DNA from: Naegleria lovaniensis | Taxonomy: Eukaryota > Heterolobosea > Eutetramitea > Acrasida > Naegleriidae | Direction: 5' to 3' | Assembly: GCF_003324165.1 (NCBI RefSeq) | Contig: NW_025407857.1 | Span: forward strand, 310,001-374,000 | Length of the DNA stretch: 64,000 nt | In this document: positions 1 to 55,933 of the stretch, piece after piece | How positions within the stretch are numbered: position 1 is the stretch's first letter | Layout: every line of letters starts with the position of its first letter | The notes under the pieces: generated by a model | What the model saw: the letters and a program-made list of their open reading frames with translations, nothing else | Databases searched by the model: none | Told to the model about the DNA's origin: nothing | Translations under genes and position numbers: made by a program

Positions 1-377
1 AAAAGGGTGTAACTGTGACCTTTAAAAAGTTAGTCGTGCGAAACGTTGCTTTCGAAGCTACTCGACAAGATTTGTATCAGCTCTTCAGCACGTACGGTCA
101 AGTGAAAACCATTCGTTTACCAAAGAAAGTGGGTTCCAACTCACATCGAGGTTTTGCTTTCGTGGAATTTGTTTCTCCAAAAGAATGTCATCAAGCGTAT
201 CAAGCTCTCAAACACAGTCACTTGTATGGTAGAACACTCAAACTCGAATTCAGTGAAGATGTCAACATGGAGAACATTCGAGATGTTCAGGAACGAAATC
301 GAGAAGAATACTTGGAAAAGGAAACAAAGAAAAGCAAAGCCAGTGCAGGAAAGCGAAAACGTGATGCTTTCTTATAA
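1..377 (+). CDS. RBM19/MRD1-like RNA-binding protein, C-terminal end (5' partial)
   Basis: The gene enters from outside the window and is read in the frame starting at base 3; no start codon is visible, and the first in-window ATG is not needed. What remains is one complete RRM: RNP2-like LVVRNVAF, then RNP1-like HRGFAFVEF, then a short charged tail (residues KKSKASAGKRKRDAFL). The spacing and the wording KTIRLPKK...HRGFAFVEF...LYGRTLKLEF match the last RRM of RBM19 (yeast Mrd1), a multi-RRM nucleolar protein needed for processing of 18S pre-rRNA. Only about 124 residues are present, so the family call rests on this single domain. A generic multi-RRM protein is the alternative. Confidence 0.75.
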   Translation, partial: KGVTVTFKKLVVRNVAFEATRQDLYQLFSTYGQVKTIRLPKKVGSNSHRGFAFVEFVSPKECHQAYQALKHSHLYGRTLKLEFSEDVNMENIRDVQERNREEYLEKETKKSKASAGKRKRDAFL

Positions 378-549: not shown

Positions 550-1518
550 ATGGCATCATCTCAATACTTGAAAGATACCATCGCTCCGATCCTCGCACGA
601 GGAATTGCAGAATGTATTGAAGTACAACCACAAGATCCAATTGAATATTTGGGCCTATGGATGTTGCATCATCAACAACAGCAAGCTCTCCGAGAGAAGA
701 GATTAAAGCAGGAAGAGGAGAATCAACGGGCTATGGATGACTGGATGGAAACGAAAGGAAAGTTGTTGCAAAAAGCAGTGGAAAGAATTCAAAGTGTGGT
801 TCGGGATTTCATTCGCAGACAGCGAGCTTACAAAGCAGAGGAACAGCAAAAAGTCATGCAATTGGAAAAACTGTGGGGCGAGTTGATGGTAAAAACACAA
901 CAAGATCAAAAAACAAAAGAAGCGGAATCAAAGGAGCATGAAGACGCATTGAATGAAAAGGAGAGAATCATGCACGAAAAGATGTTTGAGGCTTCGAAGG
1001 AGTTTATCACAAAACTAGAGAAAGATAGAATTACATACATCAAGAAGGCATTTAGGCCACCTCCATGCGTTCCTAGAATTATGAAAGCCGTTTTATTGGC
1101 ACTCGGAGTGGCACCTAAAGATGTAAAAGACTGGAATATGACAAAGGAAAAAATTGGCGCTCCAACATCGTTCATCAGGAAATTGGTAGCTTTTGAACCA
1201 GAGGCTTCCGTTGGAAAAACAGCAAGATTCAAAAGAGTGAGCAACATTTTGAAAAAGTGGGACATTGAAATTGTAAAACAACAATCCACCGTTGCATTCC
1301 TTTTGCATCAGTGGTTGACCAATTTATTGGCATTTAGAGAAAGTTTTATCTCCCTTAAAAAAGCCAAGAAGGAAGAAATTGAAGAAGAAGACGATCCAGG
1401 TATTATGGACGACATGGAAGAGGATGAAAAAGATGATCCCACCAATATTCAAGCATCGAGCTCGGAAGAGCCTAAACCTGAAACAAACGACGAACATTCT
1501 GAAGGTGACGAAGAATAA
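550..1518 (+). CDS. DPY30-IQ-coiled-coil protein with dynein-stalk microtubule-binding-like domain
   Basis: Single-exon, 322 residues. Residues 5-42 form a DPY-30 motif (YLKDTIAPILARGIAE, then DPIEYLGLWML), the helical dimer that docks amphipathic helices in radial spokes and COMPASS. Residues 80-90 fit an IQ motif (IQxxxRxxxxR), suggesting calmodulin binding. A charged coiled coil runs about 93-160. Residues 155-265 read like the stalk tip of dynein heavy chain: an ITYIKKAFRPPP turn, MKAVLLALG, a central Trp, a SFIRKLVAFE segment, and a Trp-containing helix near 255. The last 50 residues are acidic. No AAA motor or P-loop is present and the protein is far too short for a dynein. Likely axonemal, perhaps spoke or inter-doublet; the precise family is not recognised. 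It lies 106 bases upstream of, and convergent with, DRC1. Confidence 0.8.
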   Translation: MASSQYLKDTIAPILARGIAECIEVQPQDPIEYLGLWMLHHQQQQALREKRLKQEEENQRAMDDWMETKGKLLQKAVERIQSVVRDFIRRQRAYKAEEQQKVMQLEKLWGELMVKTQQDQKTKEAESKEHEDALNEKERIMHEKMFEASKEFITKLEKDRITYIKKAFRPPPCVPRIMKAVLLALGVAPKDVKDWNMTKEKIGAPTSFIRKLVAFEPEASVGKTARFKRVSNILKKWDIEIVKQQSTVAFLLHQWLTNLLAFRESFISLKKAKKEEIEEEDDPGIMDDMEEDEKDDPTNIQASSSEEPKPETNDEHSEGDEE

Positions 1519-1624: not shown

Positions 1625-3787
1625 TTACAGCATCTTTTGAGTTGGCACCAAAAGTTCCTCGTTGATTTTCTGTTGCATGTACTGATTTAAAAGGTCTCTC
1701 AGCTCATTATTCTGTTTTCGAATCATTTCTGTTTCTGTGATCAGCTTTTCTCGTTTTGCGAGCAATTCACCATATTTTTCTAAACCTCGCTCGAGAGCTC
1801 CCCAAACGTTATACCTCGATTCTGGAATAATTTGTGCCATTCTTTTCCAAAATTCGCGTTCCTCTTTACGTTTTCTGTCCTTTGCTTTTTCAACAGTGCT
1901 CAGCACCTTCTTTTTTCTTCCAGTTTCATTTTGCTCCATCAGTGCCTTCTTATTTTGCTCTTCCACAAATTTTCGCAGTATTTTAATAAGCAACTCTGTA
2001 GAGATGTCATGAAGCTCTTCTGTACTTCCTTTTTCTTCCTCTATACATTGGCTAAAAAAGTTAATCATCTTGGTGGTTTCTTCAGGTGTGTCAATACCAA
2101 TAACCCGCAAAATATTATCCACTTTCAACACTTTTGACTCATCTGGTGGCAATTTCAGTAGTAATTTTTCAACCTTTTCCTCCACTAAAAATCCTGCACT
2201 GTCGCAAAGTGTCTCAAATATTAACCGAACTGTCTCTCCTGCTGGAGACATGGTGTTATTAGTCGTATCTTTGGATGACTCGCTCACAGATTCTGAAAAA
2301 GAGGTTTCCAAGTTGACTGGCGTTTCTTGAATCGTGGTAGTATATTCTTGTGTTTTTTCAGGTATGCTTTTGATGTCTTCCTCAGGAGGAATCCACTTGA
2401 GGCCAAGCTGTTGAGTGGTTATAATTTCATCAGCCTTTTTTAATTTTTCTGCCAAATCTTCCACAATTTCCTGATTCATTTTCCAAATATCCTTATATTT
2501 TTTGGTGTCAGCTTCTTCAAAATATTTAAACTTTTGTAGTAGATCCTTATATTGAATGCTGAGCCTTTTAAACTGTTCTGTCGTCTCATTGTTTTCTGCC
2601 TTGTATTTGTTGTCGTCACGAATGTACTTTGCTTTGATACCACTCAGCTGGTCCTGTAACTTGGCCAAGAGAGCTCTATTGTTTCGAACTGCGGTCTTGT
2701 TATCCTCCACTCTGTCCACAAGGACTTCAAAATAATACTCTAATTTTTGAGCCATGAGTTGGTATTCACCTCTTATAGAGTCAATTTCTTGCTCATATTC
2801 ATGAATTTCATCTAAGAGTTCCTTCTTCTTCTTGGCATACTTTTCCATTTCTTGATCTGCCAGTATTTTGAGCTGTTGTTCGTATTCGTCAACCTTTTGA
2901 ATTCTACCTAGCGCATAGTTCTCTTCTTTTTTACTTCGTTCCTCTGCTATTGCTTGAAACTCATCTAAATTTCGTTTGATCAACTCTTTTCTCTCTTTTT
3001 CAAAAGACGTTTCTATTCTTGTCAGCTCTAAAGTGTACAAGTCGGTGAGATCTTTCACCTGAGCGTTCATTCTCTCAATCAGAGTATCTAAATCTTTAGT
3101 TTGTTTTTTTAAGGCTTTTACATATTCTTCGTCTCGTTGCTTGAGTTCATGCCCTAACTCCTTAATAAGAGCTTGTTTACTCTCTATGACTTTCAAACAC
3201 ATCTCTTGTTGCTCTAGCAGCTTGTCCATTAATTCTTGATGAGTTTTCTTCTCGTATAAAGAAGGCCATTTCATTTGGATGGCTGCATTCTTTTTCGAGC
3301 TTACAATAGCCTCACTTTTCAGTTTTTGTTGTATTTCCTCTTTCTTTACATCATATTTGAGTCGTCTCTTATTTTCTTCCATATCACTTTCTACTTTTAC
3401 ATTGGTGACAAGTTTTGTGCCATCTCGAATTTTGGATTTAATAACTCCGACAGATTCGTCAATCTGAGTTCTTGAATCTTGAATTACGATGGGCACTTCG
3501 AGTTGATGAGCAACTTGGGTATTATTTTCGTTTGATGTACCGTCCTTTATGTTTGGTGAACCAACTGTTGGGCTCTCATTTCCCTCTTCATTACTCAACA
3601 ATGATGCGTTGTTGTTGTTTTCTTCTCCATCAATGACATCTTCATTTTGTTCCTTAGTAGTAATGCTATCTGCCCCGGGCATAGTGGATTCTTCTTCTCC
3701 GTTTGTTTCATGTTGCTCCTCCTCCATCACAATATTTGAAGAGGATGAAGAAGGATTTAAACGAGCTCCATTGATCGGTTCAGACAT
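1625..3787 (-). CDS. DRC1: Dynein regulatory complex subunit 1 (DRC1/CCDC164)
   Basis: Single-exon, 720 residues, close to the usual length (human about 740). The first 150 residues are acidic and disordered. A KWPSLYEKKTHQELMDKLLEQQ segment opens a long coiled coil (about 170-470) of the NYD-SP28/DRC1 type. The diagnostic stretch EADTKKYKDIWKMNQEIVED, followed by QQLGLKWIPPEE, is nearly unchanged from algal and animal DRC1. A C-terminal helical region with KDRKRKEEREFWKRMAQIIP follows. DRC1 anchors the nexin-dynein regulatory complex between outer doublets and sets motility waveform, so this is a strong marker for a motile 9+2 axoneme. The start codon at 3787 directly follows an A tract. Confidence is high. 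Confidence 0.95.
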   Translation of the reverse strand: MSEPINGARLNPSSSSSNIVMEEEQHETNGEEESTMPGADSITTKEQNEDVIDGEENNNNASLLSNEEGNESPTVGSPNIKDGTSNENNTQVAHQLEVPIVIQDSRTQIDESVGVIKSKIRDGTKLVTNVKVESDMEENKRRLKYDVKKEEIQQKLKSEAIVSSKKNAAIQMKWPSLYEKKTHQELMDKLLEQQEMCLKVIESKQALIKELGHELKQRDEEYVKALKKQTKDLDTLIERMNAQVKDLTDLYTLELTRIETSFEKERKELIKRNLDEFQAIAEERSKKEENYALGRIQKVDEYEQQLKILADQEMEKYAKKKKELLDEIHEYEQEIDSIRGEYQLMAQKLEYYFEVLVDRVEDNKTAVRNNRALLAKLQDQLSGIKAKYIRDDNKYKAENNETTEQFKRLSIQYKDLLQKFKYFEEADTKKYKDIWKMNQEIVEDLAEKLKKADEIITTQQLGLKWIPPEEDIKSIPEKTQEYTTTIQETPVNLETSFSESVSESSKDTTNNTMSPAGETVRLIFETLCDSAGFLVEEKVEKLLLKLPPDESKVLKVDNILRVIGIDTPEETTKMINFFSQCIEEEKGSTEELHDISTELLIKILRKFVEEQNKKALMEQNETGRKKKVLSTVEKAKDRKRKEEREFWKRMAQIIPESRYNVWGALERGLEKYGELLAKREKLITETEMIRKQNNELRDLLNQYMQQKINEELLVPTQKML

Positions 3788-37268: not shown

Positions 37269-39005
37269 CTACATGATGCAACAACACCTACGACGTTGAC
37301 CTTCTTGCTCCTTGAGCTCCAGTGCTCTCTTAAGCTCTTGCACTTCACGTTGCAACCTTATTTTCTCTTGATCCAAAAAGTTGTAGTTTCCTTCCAACTT
37401 TTTAATTTGTGCCTCCATTTCTTCCATGTGCTTCTTTGAGTGTTTAAGCTCTTCGCATTTCAATTCATAGTGGAATTTCAACTCTTCATATTTGAGTTGT
37501 GACATGCTGTGATCGTCTTCAAGCGTTGACAGCAATGTCCATGCTTGAGCACTCTTTCTCTTTTCCTCCTTCAAGAGCTGTTCATTTAATTCCAGTACTT
37601 GACTAGTTCTTTTCAAGTTATTGGCCATATTTAGTAATTTAGTTTGGAGAGCACTCGATCGAGGTGTAGCAATGGTTGAGGAATTTGAAAAATCATGTGG
37701 TTGATTTTTAAGGGCCATAGGTGATGAAGGTGGTGGAGCCATTAATTGTTGCTGTTCCTTAATTCGACTTTGTAAATATTCTTGTAAGCTGTGAAACTCT
37801 CGCGCCACAGAGTGTCTCTTTAAATTTCGTTGAATTTGAACTTTGGTTGGTGAAGAATTTCCGGAAGAAGGAACGTTTGTTTTTGAAGAGGAGCTTGATG
37901 TCACACTGTGTGCTGGTGTCGTAGAGGTTGTTTGTTGTTGTTGTTGTTGTGAAGATGCCTTATTTAAAAGAAGTAATTTTGCAATTTGTTTGCTCTTGGT
38001 TTCACCAAAATTCGATTTTTCAAACTCCTCTCCGCTTTGACTACTAGTTGCCACAATATATTGCAACTCACTTCTACTTTCTCGAGAGGTGTGAGGTCTT
38101 TTATATTTTCGAATCATTGCACTCGTCGACGTTGCAGAAGCAGTCGTCTCGTTCTGTTTTTGTGACGAACTGCTCATTTCTTTTGGTGTCGTGAGTGTTG
38201 ATGAGGAATTGGTCGTGGACAAGGAATTTAAAGAAATTTCAGTCGTCGAGTCCAAATGAGTACCTAAATCTCGATTGGAAGATGACGAGGAAGTGTGATC
38301 TTCGTTACTGCTGCTACTTCCAGTGTATTGATCATTGTCATCTTTGAAATGTTCGACTTTTCCTAAATTGAGTTTTGGAATGGCAGCAATTTGGAGTGCC
38401 GTGGTTTTGGCTTTTGGTGTCAGAACTGGTTCATTAGAATCCACAGATGAGTTTTCAAGTGCAAGTGTTGTTTGTGGTGGTTCAGCTGGTGGTGATTGTG
38501 CACGGTTGACATTTGACATAACCGTTTCAGAATTTCCTGGCTTTTTAATTTTCAATTGCAAACTTCTTCTTCGTTCCATCTTTTTAGCATCCACAGGCGA
38601 TGCTGCATGTCCTCTCGGCGATATATCAGACATTGTAATTTGTCCAATTCGATTTTTCAATGGATTTTCAGTTTCATAATAAGGCAATGCATAACATGGT
38701 GGTGCTTCCTCTAAATTTTGATCTCCATTTTCGTGATGATTCAAATGATTATTATTATTCGTGGATCGTTGATGATGATCATTATTCATTAAAATTGAAT
38801 TTTTTAAAGTGGAATGTTGAATCGTGGTAGTAGTATTGTTAGTTTGGGAATTTGCTGTCTTGGTGTTGTTATTGTTGATATTGTGTCGAGACGAAGAATA
38901 TTCTTCATCTTCGTCACCGCTGCTGTAAGTATCCATTTGAGAGATGGGAACGGATAATGACCCAATGTTGTTGGTGTAGTTGGGAGAGGAAGAAGAGGGT
39001 GCCAT
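37269..39005 (-). CDS. Low-complexity coiled-coil protein with C-terminal CAAX box
   Basis: Single-exon, 578 residues. Residues 1-440 are disordered and rich in Ser, Thr, Asn, Gln and His, with runs such as NNNNT and SSQQQQQQTT. Residues about 455-570 form one clear coiled coil (LKRTSQVLELNEQLLKEEKR through LKRALELKEQEG). The protein ends RRRCCCIM: a basic cluster, two further cysteines, then CCIM, a good farnesylation CAAX (Met last). The protein is therefore likely membrane-anchored by lipid, with palmitoylation possible on the preceding cysteine. I recognise no family. The gene starts 394 bases from CFAP97D in the same orientation. Confidence 0.8.
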   Translation of the reverse strand: MAPSSSSPNYTNNIGSLSVPISQMDTYSSGDEDEEYSSSRHNINNNNTKTANSQTNNTTTTIQHSTLKNSILMNNDHHQRSTNNNNHLNHHENGDQNLEEAPPCYALPYYETENPLKNRIGQITMSDISPRGHAASPVDAKKMERRRSLQLKIKKPGNSETVMSNVNRAQSPPAEPPQTTLALENSSVDSNEPVLTPKAKTTALQIAAIPKLNLGKVEHFKDDNDQYTGSSSSNEDHTSSSSSNRDLGTHLDSTTEISLNSLSTTNSSSTLTTPKEMSSSSQKQNETTASATSTSAMIRKYKRPHTSRESRSELQYIVATSSQSGEEFEKSNFGETKSKQIAKLLLLNKASSQQQQQQTTSTTPAHSVTSSSSSKTNVPSSGNSSPTKVQIQRNLKRHSVAREFHSLQEYLQSRIKEQQQLMAPPPSSPMALKNQPHDFSNSSTIATPRSSALQTKLLNMANNLKRTSQVLELNEQLLKEEKRKSAQAWTLLSTLEDDHSMSQLKYEELKFHYELKCEELKHSKKHMEEMEAQIKKLEGNYNFLDQEKIRLQREVQELKRALELKEQEGQRRRCCCIM

Positions 39006-46579: not shown

Positions 46580-49500
46580 TTAAGGTTGATGAAAGGGATT
46601 TTGTTGCTGTTGTTGTTGTTGTTGCGTGTTTTGAAAGGAAAAGAATTGCTGAACTTGAGTATTGCCTAGTGATGTGGTTGTTTGATTAGATGATGACTGT
46701 TGTTGTTGAGGAAATGATTCATATTGTGAAAAGTGAGATTGATAAGATGTTGAATCAAACTGTGGCGCTTGTTGTTGAGGTGGTTGTTGTTGCTGAGTAC
46801 TCTCCATGTAGGTATTAAAAATGTTGAATTGAGTACTAGGTTGTGACAATTGTTGTTGTTGAGAAAATTGTGAGGAAAAATCTGTCGTGTTTTTTCGTTG
46901 AAGCATACTCATCAAAAGTGCACTCGAATAATCTTGTGCATCAACAACTCCCTGGCCACCACTACTACTAGCGGCAGTAGACGATGAAAATACATTTTGA
47001 GAAGCAATATTCATGGTTGAGGGCGAAATGAGTTGTTGAAGTGTGAAATTTGGATCTGCCACTGTTGGCGATCGTTGATAATATTGAGTGCTGGATTGTG
47101 GTGGTTGAACTGCTTGGAAATATTGAGTGCTGACCACATTGCCCGACGAGGAAAATTGTTGTTGTTGCTGTTGTTGCATGGGTTGTTGCAATGACATGGA
47201 TGGTTGAGGTTGTTGAAGCACAGGAGTGGGAGGTGCACTCATTTTTCGTTTCTTTCTCGAAGTATCGAGTGTCGTGACAGATTGGCTTGTCACAGCAGAA
47301 GGAGCCAACATTTGACCTAAATTAAATGATTGAGCACTGGTTTGTGAAATTTGAGTCGTAGTGGGCGTCATGGTAGTGGTGGTGCTTTGATCAAACATGT
47401 TGGTATTCGTTCCAAAATTATATTGATTGGCATTTCCCATTAAAGAGGTCATAAATCCTTGTGTAACATTGGATGTAAATTGAGGTGTCATTCCACTCAT
47501 CATTTGATAACCTGACGAAGTTTGTGGCATCATGAAACCTTGTTGTGAACTAGTCATTGTTTGTTGTTGAGATAGTTGTTGTTGCTGTGAAATCTCAGTC
47601 ACTTCTGGTCTCTTTTTCCTTTTCAGTTGTGTGGTTGAGGACGATACTGAGCTCGCTGCTGATGGAGTCACAGGTGAGATTTGTTGATAACTAGTAGTAG
47701 GATAATTTTGTACATGTTGTTGAGGAGAGGGTGTTTGCATTTGTGGAACATCCTGAACCACTACATTCAATTTACTTTGTTGCGCCCTTCTCTGAGGTTG
47801 TTTTCCAACATGTACCACAGATCTCATTTGTCCAATCATTGATCCAGTATTCATATTTCGAACATGAGTGTTTGTAATGACTCGTTGATGAGAAGACGTC
47901 GAAGAAGAGATGGACATGTTACTACTTTGAGTTGCTGAAGTGGTTGTTTCTGCATCGTCGTCAGATTCTCCGCCAGCATGTGAACCCTCTGCTGCCTCAC
48001 TACCTCCACTGCTTGATTGAAGAACAGATTTTGGATCGTTCTTAATGGCAACAATTTGTTTTTCGATTTTCATAATGTCATTTCTTAATTGCTCAATTCG
48101 AGAGGAGAGTTGATGCTTTTTAATGGGATCGAGAAGAATGCCAGGTGAGTCTTGCTTTTCTAGCTTTTCCAAAATGATTCTCTTTTCATTGATCTTGCTC
48201 TTGTATCTGTTAGGTTGATGCGGCATGAATAAATGTCATGCATGACAAGTGACATTCGTAGGTAAAAGTAGGATGTTGTATGAGTAAGTGCCGAAATGAT
48301 TCGACATTGTTATTATTGTATAACATTGCCATCAGTACATGAACACATTTCAATGATTACATGATCTCTCTCACACATGTGTACACATACAACTATCAAA
48401 TACTTACGATTGAATTTTTCTATAAGGCCATCGTGGTATCCCAATTCCTAATGTGATGATCATGGTCAGCATGTACAAATGTCGACATTGAGAATATTCC
48501 GATCATCATGATGAATCAATTTCACACAAGAAAGGGAATTTGAAAATGAATGAATTCAATTTTGATTCCACATGTGTGTCAATTGAGTCAATGAATAATC
48601 ACATGTGCATGACGATAGATGTTATTTTACATTTTCAAATGTTCCAATATATAAATATTGTATACAAAAGTTGACATAATGTCAATCAACAAATAAAGCC
48701 TTCAACAACATACCTCTACAAATTCGTTTGAGCTGAGTGAGGGAAATATTCAACATGGCTGCAACATTCTTGATCGGTGTTTCAAAGTAAGGCTGTAATT
48801 GAGTTATAGTAAACGTAACAGATGGAGTTGATTTTGCTGTGGATGATGATGCCGTAGGTGTTGTAGGCGATGATGCAATCATATTCTCTTGTTGTTGTTG
48901 TTGTTGAGAGAGTTGTTGTTGCTGTTGCATTACGTTTGTGGATGGTCGAGTACTGGTTGTAGAGGTGGTTGTTGTTGTTCCTAACCCAGATGAAGGCTGT
49001 TGAAAGTGAGAGATTGTTTGTTGTTGTTGTTGTTGAGGAAGTTGATGAAGGGATGAACCCAAAGAAGAAGTTGTAGTAGTAGTACCTTGTGCCATTCCAT
49101 AGAGTTGGCTCAGTAGTAGGGAATTATCACCACTAAATAGTTCATTGGTGCTACTTCCAAGAGGATGAGATCTCTCTAACGATTGTTGTTGTTGAGTGGT
49201 TGTTGGAGAGGCTGTTGTCGTTGTTGTTTGAAAAGGATGATCCTCCTCTTCACCCAATAATAACATGGAAGAGAATGGAATGATTGGAGGATTCATTCTA
49301 CTACTACTCGTTGTATCCCCTCCTTGATGCAGTTGTTGCTGTTCCATCATGCCATGATGATAGTGAGCAGCAAATTCATCCTCCATGATCATGGAATAAG
49401 AAGATGCATTGGATGGTTCATGATGATACTGCTGCTGTTGTTGTTGCTGAGTCGCTGCTGCTGTTGCAAACAACATGTTATTGATATTCTCTGTTGTGGA

Positions 49501-53224: not shown

Positions 53225-55933
53225 TTACCGCTTCACCAAATTAACAACACTCTTTGCTGGGGCAACCCCTTTTGGAGGAATGACAGACTTGCTTCCACTC
53301 AGGGCCTTTTTGGTTTGTTGTTTCGCCAAATAATTGACAGGGCTGTTGGTATAGGAGCGAGGAAGAGATGGTGTTTTGGAATGCATGGAAATTGGAGAGG
53401 AACCTGTGGGCGTTTCTGATTCAGGCTTCTTGTACAGCTCAAAGGGAGCCATTAGCAATTGCTCATGTGCAAAGAAAGAGCCACCCAAGACTCTCTTCAA
53501 CTCGTCAAAACCATTTGCTACGTTGAGCTCCCATTCCTCTCTGAACATATCCAACTCATTTTGCTTTTCACTAAACTCCACATAATTTGCAAGGACACGT
53601 TGCCGTTCATTGTCTTCAATATCTTTCAATCTCTTATTTCCAATGATAACCAATCTCTTCATTTCAAGTTCACTCAAAACAACCTTCAAATAGGGTGGTT
53701 TGGGTTTTTCAATAATTTCTCCGTTTTCGTCTCGAATGGACGAAGGATCAATGGAGGCTGCACCACCACTAAGAGCGCTCTTGGCTTGTAAAATGTACAT
53801 GAGTTGTTGAACTCTTCTTTCGTATTGTTGTAACTTATTCTTATAAATTTTCTGTGCTGTAATGTACTCTTTTCTTCGTTGTTTAAGGTCACTAGAAATG
53901 ATTTCTTTCTTAATTTCTAGAGGCATTCTCAAGAGTCGGAATCTGAATTTATCTTCACGTTCCATGTTATCAATAGGATCATCAAGAGTTGGAGTTACAG
54001 CAAGCTTGCTCTCTTCTCGAAGCAGCATGGGGCTTGAAAGCTGTGAAGAGGGTCTACGATTAAGAGGTATAACACCATTCGGAGGAAGCTTCTTCTTTTT
54101 AGGTGGTTCAACAACTTCGCCTTTCAATGGAATTCCACGAAGCATTTTGGCTTCGACGATAGAATACTGCAGTACTTGTATCATTATTTGCATTTGCTTA
54201 ATTTGGTGCCACTTTCGCAAAAAGCGTTGCACCTTGATCACTTTGCTCCAAAACAAATGAACTTGTCTGACGATTTGGAAAGACATGTTGGTCTCTCTGA
54301 GGAATGACTTGATAATCATTGTGGATTCCTTCTTTTTCTTTACACCAATCCAAAGACGGTAGAATATCCAGTGCCTTGAATTTGGTACAAATAAATGTAA
54401 CGTTCGTTCACGAAGAATACAAGGTATTGTAAGATAAATTTTCATAACAAAGTATCATATAGTTGTATGATAAATTTTCGAAATGATCAATCTCAACAAT
54501 CAGTACATACTTTTTAAAATCATCCCAGGCTTGCTTCCATTTTTGACTTCTTTTAGCCCAAATTACTGGCATCAAACTGGTGTAGGAAATCTTTTTAACC
54601 CTCTTGAATTTTTCTTCCTCTTTCCTTAAATATCGTCTTCTCAGGAGCTCTCTTGCAAAAATTAAAAATCTTGACAACAAACACACAAAGAACGACCATT
54701 TGGAGTACAATTCTGCGTCTTTGGCCTTATTTTCATTTTCTTGTCTGTTGTACTCAGCCAGTAACCTTCTCTTTTCATCCTTTAGGGCAAGATTTTCTTT
54801 TCTATCTTGGAATTCTTTCGTTAATTTTTCTTTCTTTTCTTGAGCTTGTGCAATCTTGTCGTTTCGTTTTTTAAACTACGAAATTGATTGGTACCACCAT
54901 TGTTTCAAAAGGAATCGACTCTTAATACTTACTGCCTCTTTTAATTGTTGCATTCTGGTTTCTTTGAAATTTTCTGGTACCTTCTTATTTCTGTTCACAT
55001 GAATCATTTGCATCTTTTTATCTTGTTCTGCTTCCTTTGTTTGTTTTTCGTATAGATAAATATCCTTCTCTAACCTTTCAAGCTCATCAGGATTATGATA
55101 CAAAATTTTAAGTCTCTCGTCAACTTGTTTCCTTACACTTGCATTTTTCTTTTGCTTTCTCTTAATTTGATCTTTCTTCTTCTTATTTTCTTTTTTTCGT
55201 CATAAGAGTTACATGTTTGAAAGAATTAGACACAATTTTAGAATTCCTCCGTTAATTCAACAACAATTAAGTGTTCTTACTTACCTAAATCCATTTCTTG
55301 CTTTTCCTCATCACACTTCATGGATAGAATCATGTTCTGAATGTCATCATAAATATCATTTTCTCTTAAATTTCTTCTGGGCTGAGTTCCAAGGTCCATG
55401 GCTTGTTTAAATTGTTGGTCGCTACCAAGATTTGTTTTTTGTAAATAATCCCAACAAGACTCTACGAGCTGATTATGAGAAAGAGTAAATGATGAAAGTT
55501 CGGGTGCAAACAACTCTTCTTCTAAACTGTCATAGTCAACTTCATACTCATTATTGTCCATACAGTTCATACTTCTTCGCATGGCGGTACCGGCTGAAAG
55601 TAAGCGACGTGTTCCTCGTTTTGCTGACGGTGGTTTTCCTCCACGTACATTGGGAAACCTCAGATCAACCATGCCATACTCGCCAGTATTAAATATGGCC
55701 TTCTCAGTTTTTGGGGTTTCAATCCTCAAATCTTTTTCATACGATAATGATATACTTTCGGGTGTTTTTGAACTTCTTAACGAGGGTAGACCCTTCAGAT
55801 CCTTCTTGTTCGGTATTGTAATGTCGAGTTGTGATGATGGTCTCGAATGCACATCTGGAAGTGAGGACAAATCAAGTCTTGACGAGCTTGTTGATGAGCT
55901 TCTCAAGTGTTGATGATCAGCTGCACTAGACAT
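53225..55933 (-). CDS. Coiled-coil protein with IQ-like helix, unknown function
   Basis: Four exons: 55933-55285, 55189-54933, 54875-54511, 54374-53225; 806 residues, all joins in frame. The frame is open to 55945 but only via a TTG, so the ATG at 55933 is used. The N-terminal 215 residues are Ser-rich with an acidic patch (EYEVDYDSLEEELFAPE). Exons 2-3 encode very basic coiled coil (KKKDQIKRKQKKNASVRKQ). The start of exon 4 has Trp/aromatic basic helices, including VIKVQRFLRKWHQIKQ, which resembles an IQ motif. A further coil and a Ser/Lys-rich tail follow. The acceptor of intron 1 is an unusual AAAAAAAG. It is divergent from the XRRA1-like gene; a flagellar or cytoskeletal role is possible but unsupported. 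Confidence 0.8.

Follow-up and report, generated by a model that had tools for sequence, protein, structure and literature searches.

The gene at positions 550..1518 (plus strand) of a 64,000-nucleotide stretch of the Naegleria lovaniensis genome (RefSeq assembly GCF_003324165.1, contig NW_025407857.1, positions 310,001 to 374,000; the whole stretch is hereafter called the window) probably encodes the radial spoke protein RSP2, with a C-terminal half that is a dynein stalk without a motor. RSP2, the DPY-30 motif and the dynein stalk are each known; what we would have here is an RSP2 whose sequence still betrays a dynein origin for its C-terminal half. It is not settled how radial spokes sense where the central pair lies. 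If RSP2 does carry a dynein-type tip, the spoke would possess an established module for binding microtubules or acidic surfaces, and a single small recombinant domain would suffice to test the matter. The stretch of RSP2 missing from mammals would thereby also acquire a domain identity.

Results

The coding frame is one unbroken, intron-free open reading frame of 322 amino acids, with a single full-length match (100%) in its own genome (G000:C35:310550-311515; 30.7 Mb in 97 contigs, as searched). Its first element is a DPY-30 docking and dimerisation motif at residues 4-42 (559..675, plus strand, as for all parts of the gene; Pfam PF05186, 43.4 bits, cut-off 22), after which a pattern search places an IQ-like stretch, IQSVVRDFIRR, at residues 80-90 within a long helix (787..819). 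An ascending, CC1-like stalk helix (residues 107-158; 868..1023) starts where the Pfam MT match begins, and leads into a core resembling the dynein stalk tip, or microtubule-binding domain (MTBD; residues 159-250; 1024..1299), which was recognised with a tip-only profile and hhalign. The descending, CC2-like helix (residues 251-280; 1300..1389) is covered by the Pfam MT match up to residue 275 and by a helix at 247-279 in a low-confidence model. An acidic tail (residues 281-322; 1390..1515; net charge -17 by charge count) sits right behind the basic tip and could fold back onto it. No AAA domain of the kind that makes up the AAA+ motor ring is found among the Pfam matches of the 322-residue protein. 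The AlphaFold2 model, made from three sequences, has a pLDDT of 50 and is too poor to judge the stalk-tip fold; it contains a helix at residues 30-116, with block-mean pLDDT values of 73-83 at residues 51-110 and of 42-58 before.

The dynein stalk profile of Pfam (MT, PF12777, dynein microtubule-binding stalk) matches residues 107-275 with 26.8 bits against a cut-off of 24. Among the three full-length proteins of what we call the Naegleria type (the window protein P0001, P0002 and P0003, the fourth member being P0004 of Naegleria gruberi), the cut-off is passed by two (26.8 bits, and 31.2 bits for P0002), and P0003 lies slightly under it at 22.1 bits. To exclude a coiled-coil effect, a tip-only profile was built from the stalk tips of the 11 long MT matches in the own genome. 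This profile gave 46.1 bits over residues 148-268 of the window protein, 47.2 for P0002 and 44.3 for P0003, whereas 2000 shuffles (1000 each from the window tip and a Chlamydomonas piece treated below) peaked at 8.5 bits and the other frames of the window (138 frames of at least 80 amino acids, own frame counted in) at 7.9 bits, so that the MT match is not a coiled-coil artefact. Comparison of Naegleria-type with dynein tips by hhalign returned a probability of 97 (E 3.8e-11) and a score of 63.2, which none of 100 column shuffles reached (maximum 20.0). With a reverse profile made from the three Naegleria-type tips, dynein tips were found at up to 30.2 bits, but only the best four of the 11 are clear because one of 4000 shuffles attained 14.8. 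When the best candidates of a search of the own genome with the MT profile were scored, all 12 places above the cut-off were accounted for by the window gene and the 11 long matches, which lie in frames of 608 to 4499 amino acids and are taken to be dyneins.

Alignment to dynein stalks brings a PPP turn, the KAVLLALG helix, a Trp, the SFIRKLVAFE segment and a late Trp into register in that order, and an S-x-x-A-x-x-L-x-x-W line in the last tip helix is present in 3/3 Naegleria-type proteins. The original prediction, made by eye, had described a DPY-30 motif joined to a dynein stalk-tip-like domain at residues 155-265, with these landmarks in this order, in a protein of 322 residues without any motor; the Pfam matches (both above their curated cut-offs in the profile check that it proposed), the tip-only profile, hhalign and the alignment bear this out. 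The net charge of the tip is +12 in each of the three proteins (+11 over residues 159-250 of the window protein), compared with -5 to +5 in the 11 dynein-type tips and +10 in the Chlamydomonas RSP2 piece.

The closest PDB sequences are radial spoke protein 2, namely Chlamydomonas RSP2 and the RSP2 of 9E5C (chain 2e of a Trypanosoma brucei flagellum structure), both matching over the N-terminal part. Four DPY-30 genes lie above the Pfam cut-off in the own genome; by reading of frames, the other three loci encode a short DPY30, an adenylate kinase-like protein and a protein beside an NDK-like exon. Four RSP2 N-termini, those of T. brucei and Chlamydomonas among them, all rank the window protein first of the four DPY-30 proteins, by 14 to 37 bits, and with T. 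brucei RSP2 as query on the own genome the window gene was the sole match (3 candidates scored). Genes for RSP3 and RSP4/6 are present as well. On the strength of this reciprocal closeness among DPY-30 proteins, and since none of the other DPY-30 genes found is a better candidate, we take the window protein to be, with high probability, the RSP2 orthologue. The original prediction knew of no described protein with such a layout; the PDB matches and the DPY-30 ranking instead make RSP2 the best candidate for its home.

The first two homologue searches retrieved P0002-P0004 together with a DPY-30 protein, P0005, at E 0.035. Relatives stand at 86, 60 and 70% identity, the last, that of N. gruberi, covering 56% of the length; viral contigs, scanned once, yielded no relative. 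The public N. gruberi record (P0004, 203 amino acids) agrees up to about residue 171 and is unrelated beyond, the stalk tip being lost, which may reflect a mistaken gene model (a frame or intron error) hiding the domain from annotation.

Trypanosome-type RSP2s emerged only when T. brucei pieces were included in the query, giving 16 proteins, i.e. the four of Naegleria type and 12 others; 11 of the 12 were used (6 of them named Trypanosoma), a 227-residue partial protein (P0013) being dropped, and the Pfam scan took 10, without P0011. They align with the Naegleria protein over the full length and carry acidic inserts in the tip. Against dyneins their hhalign score was 21.7 (probability 5), with 0/100 shuffles higher; against the Naegleria profile their score was matched by 4/100 shuffles. 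Their hidden Markov model (HMM) score was not separable from that of shuffles, and Pfam MT was absent in 10/10 scanned. A joint domain alignment of Naegleria and trypanosome-type pieces was misaligned, as was another domain alignment, and both were excluded from models and searches. In Chlamydomonas RSP2, a subthreshold piece is in register with the tip start of the Naegleria-type protein. Residues 480-600 scored 30.0 in hhalign against the dynein profile (probability 62), where 108 segments from other window frames came to 21.0 at most and 100 shuffles to 19.5 at most, and reached 14.1 bits with a dynein-Naegleria HMM (best of 1000 shuffles 8.1). The piece had no Pfam match, a probability of 1 with the Naegleria profile, and a Naegleria HMM score not above shuffles. 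Going by sequence, then, other RSP2s maybe contain a stalk; on the structural side, T. brucei RSP2 shows signs of a stalk fold and Chlamydomonas RSP2 probably does too, and for that reason both groups may have RSP2s built on the DPY-30 plus stalk layout. A part of PMC12399478 describes similarity between Tetrahymena and Chlamydomonas RSP2 as confined to the N-terminal DPY-30 part, which would fit a fast-changing C-terminal half.

An IQ-x3-R-x4-R pattern is found near residue 80 in 4/4 Naegleria-type proteins, with D where G is expected, and Pfam IQ had no match in the window protein at E <= 10. The IQ motif at residues 80-90 is thus weaker than proposed, being a pattern with its G replaced and without a profile match. 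In trypanosome-type RSP2s the I and Q are invariant (11/11), and the full pattern occurs in one of three tested.

Immediately upstream of the RSP2-like gene, on the same strand, lies the C-terminal end of an RRM protein (3-377, plus strand). The convergent neighbour on the other side (1625..3787, minus strand) encodes DRC1, nexin-dynein regulatory complex subunit 1 (Pfam NYD-SP28 and NYD-SP28_assoc; PDB DRC1 at 4.3e-88); the two genes stand tail to tail with 106 bases between them, forming an axonemal gene pair. The Pfam scan of long window frames covered 10 of the 21 frames of at least 330 amino acids, and three minus-strand frames, at 37269-39005 (578 amino acids), 46580-48226 (548 amino acids) and 53225-54445 (406 amino acids), had no match at E <= 0.001.

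Discussion

We propose a chain of steps of decreasing certainty. Homology of residues 107-280 to the dynein stalk (helix, MTBD-like tip, helix) would be the firmest, being very likely and well supported, followed closely by the identity of the protein as an RSP2 orthologue, which is likewise well supported and highly probable. By analogy with RSP2 elsewhere, the DPY-30 motif would probably dock on RSP3 at the spoke neck; a passage of PMC10774353 has mouse Rsph3b contacted by DPY-30 motifs, that of Rsph2 among them. The stalk would then, with somewhat better than even likelihood, extend to the spoke head surface, as judged from Chlamydomonas RSP2, whose much longer C-terminal part goes out to that surface and is absent in mammals, as described also in PMC10774353. 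The last step is speculative and rather doubtful: the strongly basic tip might touch tubulin, or the acidic face of the central apparatus, through transient electrostatic contacts that let the spoke feel the central pair, and these might be tuned by calmodulin bound to the IQ-like helix. Portions of PMC10774353 and PMC9113940 describe the central-pair-facing side of the spoke head as negative, and in PMC9113940, as far as the relevant portion goes, the central apparatus surfaces facing the spokes and the 7JTK spoke head are both negative, a published model of spoke-central pair sensing being one of electrostatic repulsion. Placed at the head surface, a basic tip could link the negative head to the negative central apparatus, or the head could cover it. 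Tentatively, and at somewhat less than even probability, RSP2 could be a captured dynein stalk. Before Discoba and green algae diverged, a stalk without a motor would have been joined to a DPY-30 dock and become the spoke part that reaches to the central pair; mammals would later have lost it. If so, the spoke would sense the central pair with a tip of the same kind as that by which dynein arms hold the doublet.

Descriptions of Chlamydomonas RSP2 give it a GAF domain and the ability to bind calmodulin. When its C-terminal region is lost, assembly reportedly proceeds but steering is disturbed (Gopal 2012).

Several points favour other readings. The negative spoke head surface, as given in parts of PMC10774353 and PMC9113940, suits a basic tip that is buried there, and the trypanosome-type tips are far diverged, with inserts, as a domain that does not bind microtubules could be; a free-standing linker would be in keeping with the presence of the DPY-30 motif, the stalk tip and the IQ-like pattern; and the Pfam MT score exceeds its cut-off by just 2.8 bits, with P0003 under it. 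The first two would favour a tip that serves as a static scaffold, buried in the spoke head or neck, where it binds acidic head proteins and aids assembly without touching microtubules or the central pair. To this reading we assign a probability somewhat short of one half; against it, the Naegleria tip is still dynein-like at 46 bits and keeps S-x-x-A-x-x-L-x-x-W in 3/3 proteins, and the Chlamydomonas C-terminal part, from what is set out in PMC10774353, extends to the head surface. That the protein is a free-standing, calcium-tunable axonemal microtubule linker, as originally predicted, and not RSP2 seems improbable given its reciprocal closeness to RSP2, the fact that none of the other three DPY-30 genes found makes a better RSP2, and the suggestion that T. 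brucei RSP2 shares the order of parts. The ‘calcium-tunable’ property has as its basis only a pattern, the IQ-like one, and the partner of such a ‘microtubule linker’ may, by analogy, be central apparatus or spoke-head proteins rather than the microtubule, because the C-terminal part of Chlamydomonas RSP2 reaches the head surface, as stated in the section of PMC10774353 concerned. A chance or coiled-coil origin of the stalk similarity is hardly credible when the tip-only profile gives 46 bits and 2000 shuffles no more than 8.5, with an hhalign probability of 97.

For the RSP2 embedding the stalk, as preferred here, a literature search found no statement of a dynein stalk in RSP2, and among the papers covered by a full-text search ‘RSP2’ and ‘microtubule-binding domain’ occurred nowhere together as whole words; PMC10994176 had no match for RSP2, and searching by PDB code brought up unrelated papers only. 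An earlier mention is possible in two 2021 spoke structure papers, in Gopal 2012 or in the 9E5C paper, and the 7JTK structure became public in December 2020. A stalk in RSP2 would also explain how its C-terminal part went unannotated: only the Naegleria-type proteins, among those scanned, pass or approach the Pfam MT cut-off.

Compared with known systems, the window protein shares with Chlamydomonas RSP2 (PDB 7JRJ/7JTK/8GLV) and T. brucei RSP2 a DPY-30 motif at the N-terminus that leads into a long helix, and it may share with them a stalk-like C-terminal half, to which structure points in those RSP2s. At 322 amino acids it is shorter than either (738 and 518 amino acids, respectively), and its tip is far more dynein-like, lying above the Pfam MT cut-off, unlike the Chlamydomonas piece and all 10 scanned trypanosome-type RSP2s. 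Mammalian Rsph2 and the DPY30 domain-containing proteins 1 and 2 have the DPY-30 motif in common with it but comprise merely 159-177 amino acids; we take the mammalian DPY30 domain-containing chains 8wzb_A, 8j07_c3 and 9fqr_HU to be RSP2 counterparts. With the dynein heavy chain stalk (PF12777; PDB 5AYH, 8I3J, 3WUQ) the window protein shares the CC1-tip-CC2 order, the PP turn, the central Trp and the S-x-x-A-x-x-L-x-x-W line, whereas it differs from the dynein heavy chain in being only 322 amino acids in total, without an AAA+ motor, and in carrying a tip charge of +12 instead of -5 to +5.
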